Below are positions 1 to 22,752 of a stretch of DNA of 24,978 nt, piece by piece; position 1 is the stretch's first letter; the number at the start of each line of letters is the position of its first letter. The stretch is from Chrysochromulina tobinii. Its lineage: Eukaryota > Haptophyta > Prymnesiales > Chrysochromulinaceae. Under the pieces are notes generated by a model. The model was not told the origin of the DNA. It saw nothing but the letters and a program-made list of their open reading frames with translations, and made no database searches. The stretch spans positions 1 to 24,978 of the forward strand of contig JWZX01003066.1 of assembly GCA_001275005.1 (NCBI GenBank). Reading direction: 5' to 3'. Position numbers and translations under genes: made by a program.

Positions 1-1534
1 TCTTGCCCATCGACTCGCAAGCCGCGCGCTCACGCCGCACGTGCCCACGCCATTGAACGAATGCACGGCGGCGGAAGGTGATTTTATGGTGGCCCAGGCT
101 CTTGCGCATCGACGAGCACGCCACATTTTGCGCAGCCCAAGTTGAGAGCCATGCTCGCAAGGCTCGCGCAAGGCCACGGTTTCGAAAGACGCGGAGCGCG
201 AAGAGCAATCGTTGCCTGTACTGATTGCTCAACTCGAGATAGCTTCTCCACTGCAGCCAACCCGGCAGTCCGCGACCCCGACGAAAAGCAAACGCACCCC
301 GTCGAAGCAGGGCATGCTGACGAAGTATGCAGGAGAAGATCGAAAAGAACTTTGCCATTGCACTGCGCCGACGCCGGTCGTGAATCTCAGCCACTAGGCG
401 GCGCAAATGGACAACGACCTCGGAGACGTGCGACCACGCGCCAAAGGCTTTCGAGAGCTGTGGAAACTTCCATCGGCTCACTGCCACCTGCAGCTGCCGC
501 TTGGCGATCACCCTTTTCTCCCACACGCCGCGCCAGGTGGTCCAGCCGCGAGCCAGATCCTTCTTGAAGATGCGGCGAAGGACGCGCTCACACTTGATCC
601 GGATGACGGCGCGATGTTGCGCGAAGCGTGCGAGATTAGTGAGGGCTATGTGAAGCCCATCTTTGCGAAACCGAGAAATGCACCTTTTTTTCTGCTCCCT
701 CGCCCTGGTGGCGGCCAACGTGAGGACCATCCATTTGCGTAGAGCGCGGCCAATCCATGTGCGCCGAAAGGCCCCGGATGCCGCGCTTGCGATCAGCCAC
801 CTTTTTCTCGCTGGACTCGAATCGCGCTCGCCAGGTGTAGAAGCCGCGTTGCCGCCACGTGATCCTGAAGAGCGCGCGCGCTTTCGTGGCGTACTCTTGA
901 AGCCACTTGTTGTGGTGTGGTCTGGCGATGACTGCAAAGCCTGCTCCCAGGTTTAGACGGCGGTAGACTCTGCGAGCGAGCGCGCGGCGCTTGAAGGCGC
1001 GCCAGTACCACAAGGCGTTGCGCAGTGCACGAGCCTCACGCAGTGTGCGATGGGCAGCAGTAATCTCAGTCGTTACTGCATCTTGCTCGAGCTCGTGCAC
1101 TTTCCTCACCAGCCTCGAGTTCGTTGCTGCCGTCTCCGTGCGTGAGTCAGCGAGGGTGATCGTCGCGCTCTGACCTGTGCGTGCGCGTCTTCGAGTTGTT
1201 TCAAAAGCTCTTCTCTCTCGGCCTCAACCTCATCGATGGCCGCGATAGCCTGAAGCGCCGTCTCTTCCGCCACCGCTGCGCGCTGGGCCAACAACCTGGC
1301 AGCTTCCTCCGCATGTTGGCGCCGGTTGGTCTCACGCCCGGCCACGAGCGCCTCACTCAGCGCGGCCCTGCGGTACGAGTCGCGCAGCTGCGTGTCGCGG
1401 TACGCGATGATGTGCTCGGCCGTGCTGCTGGTGAGCTGCGTGGTGAGCATGTGGAGCGCGGTCCTCAGATAATCGAACCCTTTCTCAAAGAGGGCGCGGT
1501 CGTTTCTTTTCGACACGGCGCGGCGCTTCGTCAT
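1..1534 (-). CDS. Sfi1-like Trp-rich helical repeat protein (3' end beyond window)
   Basis: The gene reads leftward from an ATG at 1532-1534 and runs off the left edge. The first part (1534-1175) is a charged coiled coil. From about 1010 down to 1 the translation consists of repeats of about 30 residues with spaced aromatic and basic positions, for example ALWYWRAFKRRALARRV, FRITWRQRGFYTWRARF, RALRKWMVLTLAATRAR, LARGWTTWRGVWEKR, LARALRAWLSTW and RRRAFVQWRGHVRRERA. This resembles Sfi1-type centrin-binding repeats, so a centrosome, basal-body or flagellar-root role is inferred. The frame from about 806 to 1 has no stop for about 268 codons. Two joins are needed: a possible 41-bp GT-AG intron at 1134-1174, and a one-base frame change at the T-run 802-806. 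The frame break could be a sequence error or real decay. Loose IQ-like repeats are the main alternative. Confidence 0.72.
1134..1174 (-). other. Possible 41-bp intron in the Sfi1-like gene
   Basis: On the minus strand the coiled-coil frame reaches DAHAQ and would soon run into a TGA at 1106. Removing the stretch that starts GTCAGAG and ends CGGAG, with a CTGAC branch-like motif inside, joins it in frame to TAATNSRLVRKVHELEQ, which continues a charged helical pattern. The borders are GT and AG. A 41-bp intron is very short, so an indel in the assembly is the alternative. Confidence 0.4.
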
Positions 1535-1785
1535 CGGTTTGCATCCATACCGGTACCGGTAAAAAGACACCGGGGGAGCCGGGACACACGTGTACGGGAC
1601 ACACCATGTAGAACAGTCATCCCAACGCTCGGAATTCAAACGCCACGGTGGCTGATGCGCCGCCGAAACCCCTCCACTTGCCGATATGGCTAACGAATGT
1701 GAACGTGAACGTGAAGTCCACCTTATCAACTGTTCACCTGACGGTTATGACGAAACATTACCGGTGCCTCAGAAAAAGCGATACG
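1535..1785. promoter_or_regulatory. Shared upstream region of two divergent genes
   Basis: These 251 bases separate the ATG of the leftward Sfi1-like gene from the ATG of the rightward Sec20-like gene, so they must hold both 5' regions. They include one full copy of the dispersed ACCGGT element, only 20 bases from the leftward ATG. No convincing TATA box is seen. An in-frame upstream ATG for the Sec20 gene exists at 1648, but the residues it would add do not look like protein. Confidence 0.5.
1545..1606 (+). repeat. Dispersed ACCGGT element, copy A
   Basis: The core ACCGGTAAAAAGACACCGGG lies at 1555-1574, preceded by a second ACCGGT and followed by GGAGCCGGGACACAC and a further CGGGACACAC. 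The same core occurs at 10652 and 24892. It lies just upstream of the Sfi1-like gene start. Confidence 0.8.
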
Positions 1786-2877
1786 ATGACCACGCTTTCT
1801 TCTGCACTGTTCGAGCTGGAGCAGTCCGTGCAGCGCGAGCTGCTGCGGCTTGCCGAGGCCAACAGCGCCGGCGACTTACATCCCGCTACATTCGAGGCGG
1901 CCAGCTCCGGAGTGCGTGCCTCACTCCGCCGGCATGCTGAGCAGGTTGACGCGCTTGAGCAGCTCGCGGCCGTGCAGGACCGACCATCTGAGGAGGAGGA
2001 AGTACGTGCGCTCGTGCGACGTCACCGTGCCGAGGCTGGTACGCTCAGCATGAGCCTACGCGAGCTCGCAGCCAAGGTGCGGAGCGATCGGAGCCAGCGC
2101 GAGGCGAGTGAGCGTGCAGCGCTCTTTGCACCCGTTGCAGGCTATGACAGCAGCGACGGCAGCTCGGCGCCGAGCGGTGCGTCGTCGCGCTCTGGTAGGC
2201 TAAACGCGCGGGCGTCGGCTCAGGCGGCACGCGACGTGACCGAGTCACTCCGGCGCACGCGTGCGCTGATGGCCAATGAGTTGCAGCGCACTGAGGCGAC
2301 GCTGCGCTCCCTCGACGAGCAGGGCAAGAAGCTCAGGGGCACGCTCAACGAGCACCGCGGGATCGACGGCACGCTCGCGAGCGGCCGGCGCAAGTTGAAC
2401 CGGCTCGAGACGCGCGACATGACGGACAAGGTGCTCTTCGCACTCGCCTTTGGCTTCTTTGTGTGCGTGGTGTTGCACATCGTCAATAAGCGCCTCGGCC
2501 TCGGCCTCTTCGGTCTCGCCTCTTCGCTCGCGGGTAAGAATGCGAGCGATGTGCTCAACGTGATGGCGGTGGCGGCCGGCGGCGGCGTCGGTGGCGCCTC
2601 AGCAGATGTCAGCAGTGCCCAAGTAGACAGCGGCGGAGGCAGCAGCGCCGCGGTTTTGGCGGCGACGTCGGCGACGGCAGCCGCCGACGACTTGGCGCAC
2701 GTCGTTGCGTCAGCCGTTTCCGACTTAATGAGCGAGGCGGCAGCAGCGGCAGCAGCCACGGGCGTGGCAATGGAGTGTTCTGCAGCCGCAGATGCGCCGA
2801 TGTGCAACGAGGAGGGTGTCGCCGCCACCGCCGCGACTAGAAGCCGCGTAGCGGCTCCCGTCAAGGATGAGGTGTAG
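1786..2877 (+). CDS. Sec20/BNIP1-like Qb-SNARE
   Basis: The predicted protein has 363 residues. Residues 1-110 are helical and charged. Residues 146-213 form a Sec20-type SNARE helix (VTESLRRTRALMANELQRTE and the following heptads). A single membrane anchor at about 214-233 (VLFALAFGFFVCVVLHIV) is followed by NKRLGLGLFG, the order and spacing of the Sec20 family. Sec20 acts in the ER t-SNARE complex that accepts COPI vesicles returning from the Golgi. The tail of about 125 residues after the anchor, which would face the lumen, is low-complexity Ala/Gly and ends in KDEV, close to a KDEL/HDEL retrieval signal. Yeast Sec20 ends in HDEL. The start at 1786 was chosen because the upstream extension from 1648 is not protein-like and contains promoter sequence. 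The SNARE call is strong; function of the KDEV tail is inference. Confidence 0.88.
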   Translation: MTTLSSALFELEQSVQRELLRLAEANSAGDLHPATFEAASSGVRASLRRHAEQVDALEQLAAVQDRPSEEEEVRALVRRHRAEAGTLSMSLRELAAKVRSDRSQREASERAALFAPVAGYDSSDGSSAPSGASSRSGRLNARASAQAARDVTESLRRTRALMANELQRTEATLRSLDEQGKKLRGTLNEHRGIDGTLASGRRKLNRLETRDMTDKVLFALAFGFFVCVVLHIVNKRLGLGLFGLASSLAGKNASDVLNVMAVAAGGGVGGASADVSSAQVDSGGGSSAAVLAATSATAAADDLAHVVASAVSDLMSEAAAAAAATGVAMECSAAADAPMCNEEGVAATAATRSRVAAPVKDEV

Positions 2878-3071
2878 TCGAACGGTAGTAGCGTCGTAGT
2901 GACGGTACAAATACTTAGTACGCTCTGTAGAGAAACGTGCCGTTTCTGGGTGTCGGGACCGGTTCCGGTTAGGTTGAAGGTCCCCGGGGACCGGTGTTCC
3001 CGAAATGCGAAAATACTATTATAAATACACCCGGGGGGATTGGAATCAACACGGGACACAAGTGCGCTGGA
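2878..3071 (+). promoter_or_regulatory. Promoter region of the 3072 gene with TATA-like box and degenerate element
   Basis: This stretch lies between the Sec20 stop and the next ATG. It contains a TATA-like TATTATAAATA at 3017-3027, about 45 bases before the ATG. It also holds a diverged copy of the dispersed element (ACCCGGGGGGATTGG, then CACGGGACACA) ending about 8 bases before the ATG, and two ACCGG-containing motifs near 2960-2995. Confidence 0.45.
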
Positions 3072-4613
3072 ATGTCAAGCGAGGTCTGCTGGCAGGCCTA
3101 TCTCAGCACCTTTCCAGCGACGCTCGCCTTGCTCGACCCGATCGAAGCGCGCATGGCGCCCATAGAGGCCGATGCGCAGAAGCGGCTGATGCGCGCGCGC
3201 TTGTTACATTCTGTTGTCACTTCCAAGGCTGCGGCCCTCAAGCTCTCGGATCTGAAGACCATGACCACCGAATGGATCCACGGCATGCTCGAAGCGACCT
3301 TCCCGCTCGAAAGCAACATTGTCGACGAGGGCTTTGCCGATGGCGACGAGCTGGCGCTTCGGGTGGTGCTGGCGGCGCTCGATGGTGCCCACGCGGTCGC
3401 TGGCAAGCTTGCGGCGCTGTACCGAGAGGCAGGCGAGCTCAAGGCCCATCCGGCAAGCCCGGCTAAAGCCGCTCGAGACGGCCGCACGGACAAGGCCGCT
3501 GCCAGCGCGAGCGCAAGCAGCGACGTGCCGAAACGCCCTTCGGAGGCTGAAGCCGCGGAGCTAGTGCGTCGGGCACTCGCGAGCGGTGCGTCGCTCCAGG
3601 AGGCGGTGAGCGCGGGCGTGGACGAGCTGCAGGTCTTCGGTGCGGACCTGTGGGAGGCGCTCTTGTGGCGGCGCGGCGCGCTGCGCTTCTACATGGCGAG
3701 CACCGCCGTCAGGACGCTCGGGACAGCGCTCGGGGCAGCGGATGCCAGGGCGGTGAGCAGTGCAAGCGATGGCTCGGCGGCGAAGGTGAAAGCGGCCGGC
3801 TTCGACGAGGGCGCGGCTGAGGTGAGCGCGGCTGAGCTGGCGGAGGCTGAGGTGGCGGAGGCAGCCGCCGCCTCGATTGTGTCGATCGCGCTGGCGGCCG
3901 TCGACCTCTCCGACAACGGAGGCGCTGGGGGAACCATCGGGCGGGCTGCGGCGGTGGTCACCAATCGTCACGCGGGTAGGGCGGCCGGGCCGAACGCGCA
4001 CTTGATCGAGGAGGCGTACTCGTCGCTCTCGCTGCTGCTCATGGCGCGGCGCGACCCTCATGCAGCGCCTGAGTCCATCCCTCTCCAGCTGCGGTACGGC
4101 ATCTATAGCACGACGCACCTTCTTGGGCTCGCATTCCTCAGTGAGCTCAGCTACTGGCGCTGGGCCGCCAGCGCGGCAGACCCGCTCGGCCTGGGCGCCG
4201 GCGCCGTTGCCAGCGCCGACGCGGCCGACGCTGCCGATCATGCCGATGTGCTCACGACGGCGGCCGTGGGCGGAGAGGCTGCGCCCATGACGGCCGCGGA
4301 CCTGTGGATGCGCCGTGCGGCGGTGAGCTCGCACCGCTACCTTTACACGGTGAGCGTTCTCATGGAGGGGTGCGGCTGGGCGATGGAGAAGCAGCGCGAA
4401 CTGCTTGGGCTGCTGAGCGCCGAATTGGGCAAGTCGGCCGTCGCCGCCGCACTCGCCTCCGAGATGGGCGTGTTGGAGCGCGACGAGGCGCTACGCAAGG
4501 TAGACCGTGAAGCAGCCCGTGAGGTGGCGGCTGCGACCGCGGCGAGCGCACGCACCAGGGGGAGCAAGAAGGGCGGCATCAAAGGTGGCGGCAAGGTTGG
4601 AAGCAGAGGCTGA
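3072..4613 (+). CDS. Uncharacterised Ala-rich helical protein
   Basis: The predicted protein has 513 residues and I do not recognise the family. It starts MSSEVCWQAYLSTF; an upstream in-frame ATG at 2994 would translate the TATA box and repeat element, so I rejected it. Three stretches look folded and non-repetitive: about residues 1-115, a segment with LWEALLWRRGALRFYMAS, and a segment with RYGIYSTTHLLGLAFLSELS followed by YWRW. These are joined by low-complexity Ala/Ser/Glu linkers. The C-terminus is basic and Gly/Lys-rich (KKGGIKGGGK). No signal peptide, clear membrane span or catalytic motif is visible. The all-helical look suggests a scaffold or adaptor, but that is a guess. Frame preservation over 1.5 kb and a promoter-like upstream region support a real gene. 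Confidence 0.75.
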   Translation: MSSEVCWQAYLSTFPATLALLDPIEARMAPIEADAQKRLMRARLLHSVVTSKAAALKLSDLKTMTTEWIHGMLEATFPLESNIVDEGFADGDELALRVVLAALDGAHAVAGKLAALYREAGELKAHPASPAKAARDGRTDKAAASASASSDVPKRPSEAEAAELVRRALASGASLQEAVSAGVDELQVFGADLWEALLWRRGALRFYMASTAVRTLGTALGAADARAVSSASDGSAAKVKAAGFDEGAAEVSAAELAEAEVAEAAAASIVSIALAAVDLSDNGGAGGTIGRAAAVVTNRHAGRAAGPNAHLIEEAYSSLSLLLMARRDPHAAPESIPLQLRYGIYSTTHLLGLAFLSELSYWRWAASAADPLGLGAGAVASADAADAADHADVLTTAAVGGEAAPMTAADLWMRRAAVSSHRYLYTVSVLMEGCGWAMEKQRELLGLLSAELGKSAVAAALASEMGVLERDEALRKVDREAAREVAAATAASARTRGSKKGGIKGGGKVGSRG

Positions 4614-5410
4614 TCCTTTCCTGTCCTTGAGATGGAGCGTCGAGGCCTCCGTCACCGCGCCAGCGTGCAGCGACCTCCGATAATCGACAAAAGCGAAAAG
4701 GCGAGGGCGCCACTGTGGAGGGCGCTGCCTCGCTCCTCGCTGCATGCGCGATCTCGTTTACGCTGCTCTGTCCAGCTCCAGGGCTGTTCTCATCGATTTT
4801 CTCAGATCCTCCTCACTGCGCTTTTGAGGCAAGTGCTAAAACTTGTGTCAGGCACAGCCCGGCGATCGAAGCCAGCGATGGCGCATGCGGTGGCGACTGC
4901 GCGTAAGCCGTAACAATGCCGTAAGCGCCTTTTTGTGAGGTGCATTCTGCTACTGCGGGGTAACTGCGGGGCTAGACGACAGACGTCCTTCGGGTCCTCG
5001 AGCACCCTCACACACCCTCGGCCGAAAAAGGTTAACGGGTTCGGAAAGGACAGTAAAAGCCCCCAAAGCACGGTGCACGGTCGTTTCAAGAGCGCCTAAG
5101 GCTACCGGGTACTTCCGGGTACAAGCCTGGGTGGATTCTCGCGGGGAGACCAGACTCACTAGCGAAATTGAGTAGCCCCGAGAGAACGAGTTACGAGTAC
5201 TCAGTACTTGTGGTTTTGATGTGGTTACCGAGGGGTGCGGAACCGTCTTTTGAGTGGTACCGTGCTAGGGTCTCGGGGGTGCTTGCGATACCCGGCGTGC
5301 TTGCTTGCTTGCTTGTATACCTTGCTTGCTTGCTTGTTGCCGGGGTGGGACGCGAAACGAAACGGATTTCGTCTTCCCGCGGGTCGCGGCGTCGCCCTGT
5401 GGTGGAATCC
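4614..5410. other. Intergenic region, no gene recognised
   Basis: About 800 bases between two rightward genes. Only short open frames of unconvincing composition occur. The last part contains the CTTG microsatellite. An open frame from 5168 joins the SRCR gene in frame, but its hydrophobic stretch is encoded by that microsatellite, so it is treated as 5' flank. Confidence 0.5.
5298..5337 (+). repeat. (CTTG)n microsatellite, interrupted
   Basis: Two runs of CTTG units, about 4 and 4-5 copies, are separated by TATAC. They lie about 75 bases upstream of the SRCR gene ATG. Confidence 0.85.
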
Positions 5411-8585: not shown

Positions 8586-10551
8586 TCAGACGAGGATCTT
8601 AACCTCCGAATCGTGATGCTTGCCGTTGGCCGATTTGGAACCGTTGGCGGCAGCGGCGCTCGCGGCGCGGCGCGTGGCCGCAGCCTTCGTCACACATCCG
8701 CAGCACTGGCTGCAGAGGGCGTCGACCCGCGACGCGATGACTAGACAAACCGAAGGACAGGATGATTCCGACGATGCCCCAGCGGCTGAGCACCGGGACC
8801 ACGTAGCCGCGGGCGAAGAAGTCGTATGTGATCGAGGCGGGCACCGAGAGCATTGCGCCAACCGCTACGAAGGTGGGGGTCGTGAGCGCGATGGCGGCGA
8901 GCAGGCACGTCTGGTACGCAGCCATCAGCAGTGCGACCAACCCGTAGCTCTTCGTAAGCTCGATCGGAGGAACCTCGAAGGGCTCGAAGCCCGAGTAGTG
9001 GAGCAGCGCAATCATGGGGCCCATCGTGACCACCGAGGCGAACCCGATGATCGCGACCACGAGCAGCGAGTCGGTGAAGGGTGTGAGCGACACGCTCACC
9101 GATGGGAAGACCTTCTTGAAGATCACCTCCTTGAACGAGTAGATGGTGGCAGAGGCGAGCACGGTGACCACGCCTTGGATGCCGCGCTCGCCGCCCGTGG
9201 GCGAGCTCGAGTCGTAGCGCGTGCCATTCGCCACGATCGAGGTCGCGATCATCGCGCCGAGCACCGCGAGCATGGAGGTGAGGGTGAGGGGCTGCTTGAG
9301 GAGGGGGATGGAGAAGACGTAGACGAGGAGCGGGTTGACGTTATAGACGGCCGTGTTGATCGAGACAGACGTGAGCGAGAGCGACGCAATCCAGGTAGCC
9401 GAGGCCGCCTGGGTGAGCACCATCATGAGCAAGCCGAGCTGCAGCGTCTTCAGCGTCGGCTTGAGAGGCCTCCGGAACGTGATCTCCGTCTGCACGCTCT
9501 CCTGGCAAGTGTGCAGCACGTACCACAATGGTAGCAAGAAGACCCAAGACGACTTGAGCACGATGGCTAGCGTGTACGGCTTGTTCCACTCGTCCGAGGC
9601 GATGTTTTGGAGCATCTCGGCGTACACCACCCAGATGAGCACCGAGGAAAAGATCAGAAGCGATCCTACGAGCGGAGCCGTGGTCGCCGGCGGCGATGCC
9701 GGAACGACGACCGCGTCAGGGGAAGCGCCTGGCGGGCGCAGCCGCCGCGCGAACATGCGCTCGTAGATGGGCATCGCCTCGGCAATCGTGTCCCGCACAT
9801 TCTGCGGCAGCTCCTCGATGCTCGGCGGCAGCGAGCGCTTTGCGCGCTTCGTGATGCCCGAGGAGGCGAGTACGTCGTCAGTCCACCCTGTCCAGGGAGA
9901 TTTGAGCTCCTCGCACGGTCCAGGCGTCCACGAGAGCATCGAGGGCTTGAATGGCAGGCCGACCGCAGCGCAATATTCCGTCATGAGGCCCTCGGGGTCC
10001 TCGAGCAGGTCGTCAGCGTCAATGATGACGACCGGAAGACAGCCCTTCTGCTGCTCAACGTGATCAAGGATGTCGCGCATCGACGTGTAGCCTGCTTCTG
10101 CTGGGTCGAAGTGCGTGTAACCCGTCTTCTCGTTGTCGATGCACGACTTGTAGTAGAGCGAGACGATGGCCTTGGCCGGGTGCCGAATGATGAATGAGTG
10201 GACAACCTTTGAGTAGTCACCGCCGAGCATGGCGTGCATACTCGGGATGCAATGCGGCGCAAAGTAGTATGTGAGGTTCTTTGAGAAGAGGTACTTCTTC
10301 CCTGATTTGAGCGGGTCGTGCCACAGCCGCTGCGCGACGCTCGAGAATGTCGCGGCGACACGCCTGTCCTCCGCGTTCCGCGATGACGCTGCCTCACTGC
10401 CCCAGTAGTGCGGCACGCCAAAGGGCTCGTGAACGACCTCGATGTCATTGTTCTCGACCATAGCCCTTTCCACAGAGGTGGAGAGCGAGCGAGGCGGCCC
10501 CCACAGCATGACACGTTTCCCCACGGGGGGCTGGCTTGGCGCGCGGCACAT
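8586..10551 (-). CDS. Sulfotransferase-DMT/EamA transporter fusion
   Basis: The single frame from the ATG at 10551 encodes two joined modules. Residues 10-275 resemble a PAPS-dependent sulfotransferase: the P-loop GPPRSLSTSVERAM at 18-31 should bind the 5'-phosphosulfate, and HSFIIRHPAKAIVSLYY at 118-134 matches the 3'-phosphate region. After a Pro/Ala linker (about 272-292), residues 293-605 hold about ten hydrophobic segments of a drug/metabolite-transporter permease, with typical stretches such as INTAVYNVNPLLVYVFSIPL. The P-loop module should be cytosolic. A product sulfated and then exported by the same polypeptide is an inference; the substrate is unknown. The original frame ends at 8599 with an unlikely Arg-rich tail. 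A +1 shift near 8749-8760 would instead give VCLVIASRVDALC and end at 8586 with SEVKILV, a more natural last helix and tail. The fusion could conceivably be two merged genes, but the frame is continuous across the linker. Confidence 0.82.
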
Positions 10552-20604: not shown

Positions 20605-22443
20605 CTATCGTCCGTTTGATCTTCCGCGCTCAGCTCCGAACACATAGGCCCAGCAGGAATTGGGGCCTGTCAAAGTGCGCACGGCATGCGGTGTCCCAGG
20701 TCGGATGGCTATCGGAGCCGAGCTGGGAACGAGCTCAGGGGTACCATGTGAAGCCGAGCCCCATTTTGGAGGTAGGAGCAAGGTGGTTTGGCCCATCTGA
20801 TCGACCTCAATCCGTCCTTGCAGCGGTACCAGAAGCACGCGAGCTGGGAAAGGGCTCATATCAGGAAAGGACTCGTTGAACACGCCGTCCGGGGTGTCGG
20901 CAAAGAAGGCGGTTCGGTGATCGGCAGCCGCCAATCGTGCACGAAGCCATCCCATGCGCCCCCGCCATGCCGACGATCCAAACTCACGAAGCAGCGGGCG
21001 CACCCATGTGGGCCTCGAGAGCTCAAGGATCTCCACGGTGGCGAGATCTGCACCGGGGTCCACAAAGCGTTGTAGCGGGCGGCCGTTGATCGAGGACCAG
21101 AGATGGCCCACCACACGGCAACCCGTGTCCGCCCGACAGCCACTACGCCTCGCAGCATCACGCGCAAAGTGAAGCAGCATGGCGGGTGTGTATGGCATGT
21201 ACCCTGCTTGACGCGGCTCTAGGCGCGGGGCAGTCGAAATCAAGTCCAGCGAGCCATTGGCGTGGCTTAGGTATAGCCGATTGTATGTGCGAGTCATGAA
21301 CACCGTTGCCCCGAGGCGTTCGTCATGAAGGCTGACGTTGATGAAGTTGCGCGTCGTGACCGCCATCATTCGCCACGAGAGCAATGTGTGGCTCTTCGTG
21401 TGCACCGCATCGAGGGCATCAAACTTGAAAATGACCAGGGGCCGGAGTGGCAGCAGCACCTGCACCAACATGTGGACTAGACCAATTACAGCCGAAACGC
21501 GCGACCATGCCGAGCCGTCTTGCGAAGAGGGCAAAGCACGTGCTTGACGATCGAGCTTCTCAGACCTCGGTGAGTTCACAACGGGCGTCGACCATGCGGA
21601 CTGCGCGCTTCCAGGCGGCCCATCCAAGAAGAGCACATTCGTAGCCAGCATCACCCAAGGGAACTCTCCTAGCGACCAGATGACATGGTTGGTTAGGTGG
21701 AAACTCGTCGCGAGCAGCAGACCCGCGGGGCGCGTGGGGCGCCAACAAAGTAGTGGCGCAATCGCGAGGTCGAAGATCAACCCTGCCCACGAGACAACGC
21801 GGGCTGTCTCTGGGAGCCGCAGCAGCGGCTGCAGCAGTGGCTGCGTCCACGACAAGTGCATCGCAGCTTCATCTACCAGCTTTGTCGCCATCGGCTGTGC
21901 ATGTACGATCCAGTCTTCGTTTAGTTTGGCGATGCCTGCGTACATGTAAACGATGCAAACCTGAGCCCGCAAAATGTCGCGATGCCAAGCAGGGCATGTT
22001 GATGCTCCGCCGCGGCCCACAGCGCGCGCCATCGACAGGGAGAATGTTTGGTCAGCACCGACCAGGGCGATGAGGACGCTGAGTAGAGCGTACAGGTAAT
22101 AGTGGTTGTTAAACATCGTGCGCTCGCAAAGCACGAAACCGGAGTACGTCAGAGCAAAGGTGACCGCACCCACACGTGTGGCGATACCAAGCGTGATGCA
22201 CATGGCACTAACGGCCATGAGCAGCAGGTGCACGTGGGCCTCATGGGTACTCCTTGGCGGAACCAACCATGGAAGTGGCTGCAGCGTCACACCATTGACG
22301 ACATACGGAAAGTGCATCTGTGGGCGCAGCACAGAGCGCTCGTACATTCCCAGGTGATGCAGCCGCCACACGTGCGCCACCATCAGCGAGCCGAATGGGA
22401 CGCGAAACGCGCACATCGGGCGCGCGTCGCACTGCCTAGGCAT
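20605..22443 (-). CDS. Vitamin K-dependent gamma-carboxylase homologue (HTTM family)
   Basis: The predicted protein has 612 residues from the ATG at 22443. The first 300 residues contain several membrane spans with family motifs: CERTMFNNHYYLYALLSVL at about 106-124, and YMYAGIAKLNEDW at 166-178. The latter matches the gamma-carboxylase motif around the catalytic base; Lys173 aligns with human Lys218. SFHLTNHVIWSLGEFPWVML follows, then FLDGPP. The C-terminal half is mostly soluble and would be lumenal. The known enzyme converts Glu to gamma-carboxy-Glu using reduced vitamin K, CO2 and O2 in the ER. Algal targets are unknown. Overall length is somewhat below that of the animal enzyme (about 758 residues). 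An in-frame TTG just upstream was ignored in favour of the ATG. Confidence 0.82.
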   Translation of the reverse strand: MPRQCDARPMCAFRVPFGSLMVAHVWRLHHLGMYERSVLRPQMHFPYVVNGVTLQPLPWLVPPRSTHEAHVHLLLMAVSAMCITLGIATRVGAVTFALTYSGFVLCERTMFNNHYYLYALLSVLIALVGADQTFSLSMARAVGRGGASTCPAWHRDILRAQVCIVYMYAGIAKLNEDWIVHAQPMATKLVDEAAMHLSWTQPLLQPLLRLPETARVVSWAGLIFDLAIAPLLCWRPTRPAGLLLATSFHLTNHVIWSLGEFPWVMLATNVLFLDGPPGSAQSAWSTPVVNSPRSEKLDRQARALPSSQDGSAWSRVSAVIGLVHMLVQVLLPLRPLVIFKFDALDAVHTKSHTLLSWRMMAVTTRNFINVSLHDERLGATVFMTRTYNRLYLSHANGSLDLISTAPRLEPRQAGYMPYTPAMLLHFARDAARRSGCRADTGCRVVGHLWSSINGRPLQRFVDPGADLATVEILELSRPTWVRPLLREFGSSAWRGRMGWLRARLAAADHRTAFFADTPDGVFNESFPDMSPFPARVLLVPLQGRIEVDQMGQTTLLLPPKWGSASHGTPELVPSSAPIAIRPGTPHAVRTLTGPNSCWAYVFGAERGRSNGR

Positions 22444-22752
22444 CCACCACAAAAGCTTGTGTGAACGTGCCTGTTAATACTCCCGCCTGCTCACGCAGCG
22501 AATCAGGTGTTGAGGAGCGTCCGATTGTCGTGACGAGGAGGAGGAGACGTGGAGTCTCGAATCGTGTGATTCGCCCCGCGGGCGGCTGTTTTATAGAGCG
22601 GCCAGTCGACATGCCAGCGACGTTGCTATCATTATAATTAGAAGTGCTTTGTGGGTTGATTTTAGAGTTGGTTGAGCCTTAATTTGGTTCACAAACAATT
22701 CGAACTTCTCGTGGGCATCCTTTGCTCACCTGCGCGCGCGTGAAGGAGCGCA
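22444..22752. promoter_or_regulatory. Shared upstream region of divergent carboxylase-like and ankyrin genes
   Basis: These 309 bases separate two divergent ATGs. The right half (about 22610-22710) is markedly AT-rich, with a TTTTATAGAG TATA-like motif near 22589 and ATTATAATTAG near 22631. They probably act as promoter sites for one or both genes. Confidence 0.5.

Follow-up and report, generated by a model that had tools for sequence, protein, structure and literature searches.

Does a single haptophyte gene encode a protein that both sulfates a compound and carries it across a membrane, or have two neighbouring genes been read as one? This question is raised by contig JWZX01003066.1 of Chrysochromulina tobinii (positions 1 to 24,978; the whole stretch of 24,978 nucleotides is referred to as the window), where a sulfotransferase domain continues into a carrier of the DMT type. 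The window sequence almost certainly encodes a true fusion. The reading favored here, with a rough probability of 0.5, is that of a bifunctional haptophyte membrane protein, which would carry out sulfation in the cytosol and export the product through its own carrier. The gene has the following parts:

8599..10551, minus strand: main open reading frame, 650 residues plus stop (open reading frame, Pfam, homologues)
9745..10515, minus strand: Sulfotransfer_5 domain (PF19798), residues 13-269 (Pfam)
10477..10500, minus strand: P-loop GPPRSLST, residues 18-25 (motif present)
10417..10431, minus strand: HEPFG motif, residues 41-45, including E42 (E[PM][FLY] in 70 of 71 family members)
10153..10191, minus strand: IIRHPAKAIVSLY, residues 121-133 (R[HDN]P in 69 of 71 family members)
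9679..9744, minus strand: poorly conserved linker, residues 270-291 (pairwise identity)
8728..9678, minus strand: ten-helix DMT carrier domain, residues 292-608 (Pfam, six-frame search, AlphaFold2 model, fold comparison)
8586..8744, minus strand: homologous C-terminal tail and stop in a shifted frame, ending Ile-Leu-Val (matches the tail of P0002)

The main frame opens with an ATG at 10551, ends with a stop codon at 8599-8601 and has both domains inside it. In 300 random sequences matched to the window's length and to the dinucleotide make-up of the region, the longest frame never came to 651 codons (median 330, maximum 557). Because GC-rich sequence yields long frames anyway, homology is the stronger proof of the fusion frame. 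An earlier note on this DNA had placed a complete sulfotransferase and a ten-helix permease in one frame at 8586-10551. The complete Sulfotransfer_5 domain does share a frame with ten helices of the DMT type, according to Pfam, a predicted model and the homologues, but that frame stops at 8599, and the span 10551-8586 (1966 nt, or 3n+1) is not divisible by three. Near 8745 the frame is offset by one base, which moves ~50 C-terminal residues into another frame; the offset begins at about residue 603, so that the main frame lacks the C-terminal tail and the final few residues of helix 10. In P0002, which is 94% identical to the window protein, the tail beyond the last helix matches the window's shifted frame. 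Judged from this comparison, the low coordinate 8586 is the shifted-frame stop (8586-8588), and the C-terminus of the 650-residue protein is not ancestral. Either the assembly is in error here or the gene has a real lesion; relatives with an intact frame exist.

The same domain order is found well beyond this contig. About 5.8 billion proteins were searched, and the 7996 candidates with the most shared words were scored. At E ≤ 1e-3 this gave 32 homologues; in 10 of them the alignment covers 93% or more of residues 1-635, with identities of 48-94%. A second species with the fusion, on which the earlier note had made its proposal depend, is therefore present: the ten include the annotated Prymnesium parvum protein AB1Y20_016633, and two of the other nine are near-copies of each other. 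P0005 is an eleventh full-length relative, split by an insert. A Prymnesium polylepis protein from EukProt (coverage 74%) has both Pfam domains and stops inside the carrier, with an intron-like insert in its enzyme half. The fusion homologues with a named source (P. parvum and P. polylepis) are both haptophyte. A profile search built from 11 rows (E ≤ 1e-6, 7995 candidates scored) gave 33 matches, only two of them outside the fusion family: a liverwort protein joining an aminotransferase to Sulfotransfer_5, and an oomycete DMT protein. One scan of viral contigs gave 44 pattern matches, none of which encodes a relative, and a viral origin of the fusion was dropped.

Two separate transcripts would have spoken against the fusion as the earlier note described it. 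Apart from one 68-residue insert, which P0005 has within the second carrier helix, P0004 and P0005 agree at 660 of 662 residues. A coding role for this insert was rejected, and it was judged to be a retained intron (204 nt) that is gone from P0004; P0013 and P0016 also pass, by eye, into unrelated sequence at the same site. P0004 thus suggests, in the manner of a cDNA, one spliced transcript across both domains, and this protein comparison argues against separate transcripts.

The enzyme half matches PF19798 over positions 2-225 of the 226-position model (E 8.6e-16; 58.5 bits vs. a cut-off of 23.2). The two motifs named by the earlier note, GPPRSLST and IIRHPAKAIVSLY, were found within the sulfotransferase fold at the residues listed above; we take the former to be the P-loop that binds the 5'-phosphosulfate and the latter to be the 3'-phosphate-binding motif of an enzyme dependent on 3'-phosphoadenosine 5'-phosphosulfate (PAPS). 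The 71 family members used for the motif counts were picked by the P-loop pattern PR[STA].[SL]T, and the one that departs at the HEPFG site has E followed by YY. E42 aligns with the glutamate of the TPST1 GEET motif, in a weak match (E 0.11), and is proposed as the putative catalytic base, a role that we presume from TPST. The sulfotransferase half is very likely to be enzymatically active. The genome has one PF19798 match, which is the fusion, and two other sulfotransferase families have 7 and 13 matches elsewhere. No significant solved-structure relative of the whole protein was found by sequence search, and NCBIfam models gave no match for P0001 or P0012.

In the carrier half, EamA matches residues 296-440 at E 1.6e-5 and 25.7 bits, just below the cut-off of 28.2, in the protein search, and at 30.3 bits, above the cut-off, in a six-frame search of the genome. 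The AlphaFold2 model (mean predicted local distance difference test score 80.2, predicted template modelling score 0.62) has an alpha/beta domain followed by ten membrane helices (292-608), as in the ten-helix DMT fold. Seven residues in the carrier helices are invariant across 11 aligned fusions (K333, N399, N406, K474, E475, D494, and D577). This half is likely to be an active carrier. The linker is 18-66 residues long among the ten proteins measured, with a mean pairwise identity of 0.31, compared with 0.67 for the sulfotransferase and 0.57 for the DMT half. The charge bias of the loops suggests that the enzyme domain faces the cytosol. All 17 usable C-termini of relatives end in [LM][VI], which the window has only in the shifted frame. 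This end looks like an endoplasmic reticulum (ER)-exit signal; a hydrophobic or valine C-terminal signal of this kind is described, in the excerpted text of one paper, from animal cells and not from haptophytes (PMC11470877). Taken as such a signal, it probably places the protein in the secretory pathway.

These features can be arranged into a proposed mechanism. The N-terminal domain would act as a PAPS-dependent sulfotransferase on the cytosolic face, sulfating a small soluble metabolite, and the charged product would be released beside the carrier, to which the enzyme is joined by a short flexible linker. This product, or a compound closely related to it, could then pass through the ten-helix carrier at a secretory-system membrane, be it that of the Golgi, of a vesicle or the plasma membrane, to which the C-terminal [LM][VI] exit signal would send the protein. 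The product would arrive in the Golgi lumen or outside the cell. The step on which the mechanism turns, that the cargo of the carrier is the product of the enzyme, has about an even chance of being correct.

Other enzyme-carrier frames in the same genome bear on this step. There are 80 EamA matches, 13 of them in frames of at least 500 residues, and 3 of those 13 bear an enzyme: the window gene and two parallels, both examined in this genome.

C1285 (L004), 415-2406, plus strand: 664-residue frame, GNAT acetyltransferase then EamA carrier (Pfam)
C1666:6800-11800 (L069), frames 983-2839, 3123-4187 and 4139-4996, plus strand: Vrg4-like carrier and enzymes (Pfam, solved-structure matches)

The GNAT part of C1285 matches Acetyltransf_3 at E 2.7e-23, and its solved relative is the PA3944 acetyltransferase (E 1.5e-6). 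In C1666, a Vrg4-like carrier (9s35, E 1.1e-6) shares its frame with the first part of a ColD-like 3-dehydratase, which follows it; the dehydratase is completed in a downstream frame that also holds a GDP-fucose-synthase-like domain, and the gene requires introns. Among NCBIfam models RfbH fits the enzyme best, with a score far under its cut-off; ColD is favored for the dehydratase, without certainty. ColD and a GDP-fucose-synthase-like enzyme carry out the last two steps to GDP-colitose. C1666 looks like an enzyme-transporter fusion of the GDP-colitose type, and GDP-colitose would be a plausible compound for a GDP-sugar carrier to move. Since its enzymes could make the cargo class of their own carrier, it supports the idea that a fused enzyme names the cargo. 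The coupling of sulfation to export proposed by the earlier note is thus plausible from the charge bias, the C-terminal signal and the C1666 parallel. More tentatively, haptophytes may use a general make-and-ship design, in which cytosolic enzymes are joined to a DMT carrier that exports their product; its examples would be the sulfotransferase-DMT protein as the conserved sulfation version, the GNAT-DMT protein, and the Vrg4-like carrier with ColD/RfbH-like and GDP-fucose-synthase-like enzymes. The sulfated product would then be a secreted haptophyte metabolite or a surface component.

The ten other EamA frames of at least 500 residues, together with five of 465-495 residues, hold carrier families only. 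The same is true of the long frames found through TPT and UAA models at C1934, C1987, and C2167; the frame upstream of the C1934 carrier frame has no Pfam match. The C1934 frame and two further loci are as follows:

C1934:17800-23600 (L150), 1768-4530, plus strand: UAA carrier (SLC35B1-like, E 1.3e-29) and, in the same 920-residue frame, another long hydrophobic half that by eye resembles a second carrier
C1067:21000-26500 (L068), 1048-2217 and 2490-4019, minus strand: adjoining Sulfotransfer_1/3 gene and TPT-type carrier
Window 20605-22473, minus strand: 622-residue frame with HTTM and the lumenal domain of vitamin K-dependent gamma-carboxylase

The C1067 pair was rejected as a second sulfotransferase-DMT fusion; its members are neighbors on one strand in separate frames.

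The origin of the fusion was traced in a maximum-likelihood tree of 38 sulfotransferase domains. Its 17 fusion rows (10 full-length, P0018, and six that end in the first carrier helices) fall in one clade (95/96), together with two fragments of unclassed state, P0021 and P0040. Seven stand-alone proteins with another common tail lie outside this clade, as do three more rows of unclassed state. Because two unclassed rows lie inside the clade, a strict count of labels gives three changes and not one; in addition, P0018, P0021, P0034, P0035, and P0037 were trimmed at 290 residues, so some unrelated sequence entered the alignment. The fusion apparently arose once. Across 45 pairs from 10 fusions, the pairwise distances in one half follow those in the other (r = 0.96), which argues that the halves travelled together. 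By eye, the stand-alone proteins P0014, P0015, P0017, P0020, P0023, P0034, P0035, P0037, and P0038 share a tail of the form KPI.AS..S.D..L ... PIRAVL.AD.

Bacterial Sulfotransfer_5 genes were surveyed in 80 loci (L070-L149), the best 80 of 300, a choice that favors close relatives of the alignment's first row. An arylmalonate-decarboxylase-like gene lies near Sulfotransfer_5 in 74 of the 80; among the 60 loci that could be parsed, it is the gene directly upstream in 41 (20 were left out, their anchor gene not having been recovered). The loci with this neighbor belong to marine proteobacteria and others. Neighbors were counted by tblastn with one representative per type: Rieske oxygenase (28 of 80 loci), RpiR (25), F420H2-dehydrogenase-like (20), carboxymuconolactone decarboxylase-like (18), aldehyde dehydrogenase (13), ATP sulfurylase-like (10), ABC ATPase (8), HAD (7), BCCT (6), and hydroxyisobutyrate-dehydrogenase-like (5). 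Pfam named only Amdase (the arylmalonate-decarboxylase-like gene) and ATP-sulfurylase; the other names were read from the sequences. No single substrate follows from these counts, and the attempt to derive one was dropped.

Several observations weigh against sulfation in the cytosol followed by export through the fused carrier. The EamA score at the protein level is borderline. The charge bias is modest: 3 of 11 rows have D+E > K+R in the loops on the N-terminal side, a set that takes in both longer termini. The main frame of the window lacks the [LM][VI] end, the offset falling in the last helix. In C1666 the carrier and the enzymes are separated by an additional hydrophobic segment, which may give it a different topology. 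Close stand-alone sulfotransferases (P0014, P0015, and P0017, 71-73% identical to that of the window) exist without a carrier, which is therefore dispensable for the enzyme. Bacterial Sulfotransfer_5 is not notably linked to DMT carriers: the tested DMT type occurs in at least 3 of the 80 loci, a lower bound because other multi-helix frames, a few of them DMT-like, were left unclassified. Finally, the arylmalonate-decarboxylase-like gene had no match in the C. tobinii genome, in a search run without a positive control.

Among the alternatives, the one that survives best, though it is unlikely, is that the DMT half moves the cofactor and not the product, bringing PAPS in or taking 3'-phosphoadenosine 5'-phosphate out and so feeding or clearing the fused enzyme. 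SLC35B1 is not separated from TPT and Vrg4 in the fold ranking (Z within 1). UAA (PF08449, SLC35B-type), which has 17 matches elsewhere in the genome, was not reported in the window protein at E ≤ 1; most weak matches are dropped by the filters of HMMER. In addition, an enzyme placed in the cytosol by the charge bias would not need PAPS imported across the Golgi membrane. It is slightly less probable that the DMT half imports the acceptor, which the fused enzyme would sulfate and trap in the cytosol for uptake, detoxification or storage; no sequence evidence points to an importer, and the ER-exit signal, fitting plasma membrane and Golgi equally, is not decisive. Less probable again is a DMT half serving mainly as a membrane anchor or pseudo-carrier that positions the sulfotransferase, with no coupling to transport. 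The existence of stand-alone paralogues and the lower conservation of the DMT half (0.57 vs. 0.67) would fit such an anchor, but ten full helices with invariant intrahelical residues exceed what an anchor needs. An assembly or gene-calling artefact joining two adjoining genes, for which one could cite the single contig of a fragmented 53-Mb assembly and the 3' frame offset, can be set aside given an uninterrupted frame over both domains and the recurrence of this domain order in 10 more full-length proteins that come from several sources.

Haptophytes produce organic sulfur on a major scale in the sea, and little is known of how sulfated compounds are made and released by them; with sulfating enzyme and carrier in one protein, there is a gene through which this can be tested directly. 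The cargo of DMT carriers is usually hard to deduce, and if the genome does fuse several enzymes to such carriers, the enzyme half would hint at the cargo.

Compared with known systems, the fusion shares its parts with several proteins. Stand-alone Sulfotransfer_5 proteins have the same domain and motifs, whether close (P0014, P0015, and P0017, presumably algal) or distant (P0062-P0105, many of them bacterial, at 26-36% identity to the window sulfotransferase); they have no carrier, and the close ones bear another conserved tail. Sulfotransfer_5 is likewise fused to a second domain in Urochloa P0033 and Riccia P0107, where the partner is an aminotransferase of class IV instead of a carrier. 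The solved chains of the TPT, SLC35B1, and Vrg4 fold (295-315 residues) are carriers alone, unlike the fusion. No published sulfotransferase-DMT fusion was found in a literature search whose coverage left out subscription papers and preprints. In their excerpted text, two papers that name PF19798 merely list the domain (PMC12506393, PMC11625862), and one on Phaeocystales genomes describes expanded sulfotransferases and transporters without naming such a fusion (PMC12480563). P. parvum RmlC/D, as excerpted, is a haptophyte fusion of metabolite-making enzymes (PMC6556577), differing in that it joins two enzymes and is carrier-free. The nearest parallel in design is LplT-Aas, a lysophospholipid flippase and an acyltransferase that, from the excerpted account, apparently form one open frame in some bacteria (PMC11416262). 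There too, as described in that excerpt, a carrier works together with an enzyme acting on its cargo, with the differences that the system is bacterial, that the reaction is acylation instead of sulfation, and that the enzyme acts after transport. Within the literature covered, much of it as excerpts, enzyme-carrier fusions are already known as a kind through LplT-Aas, and the pairing of a sulfotransferase with a DMT carrier is new. The folds in LplT-Aas, moreover, are different from those joined in the haptophyte protein.
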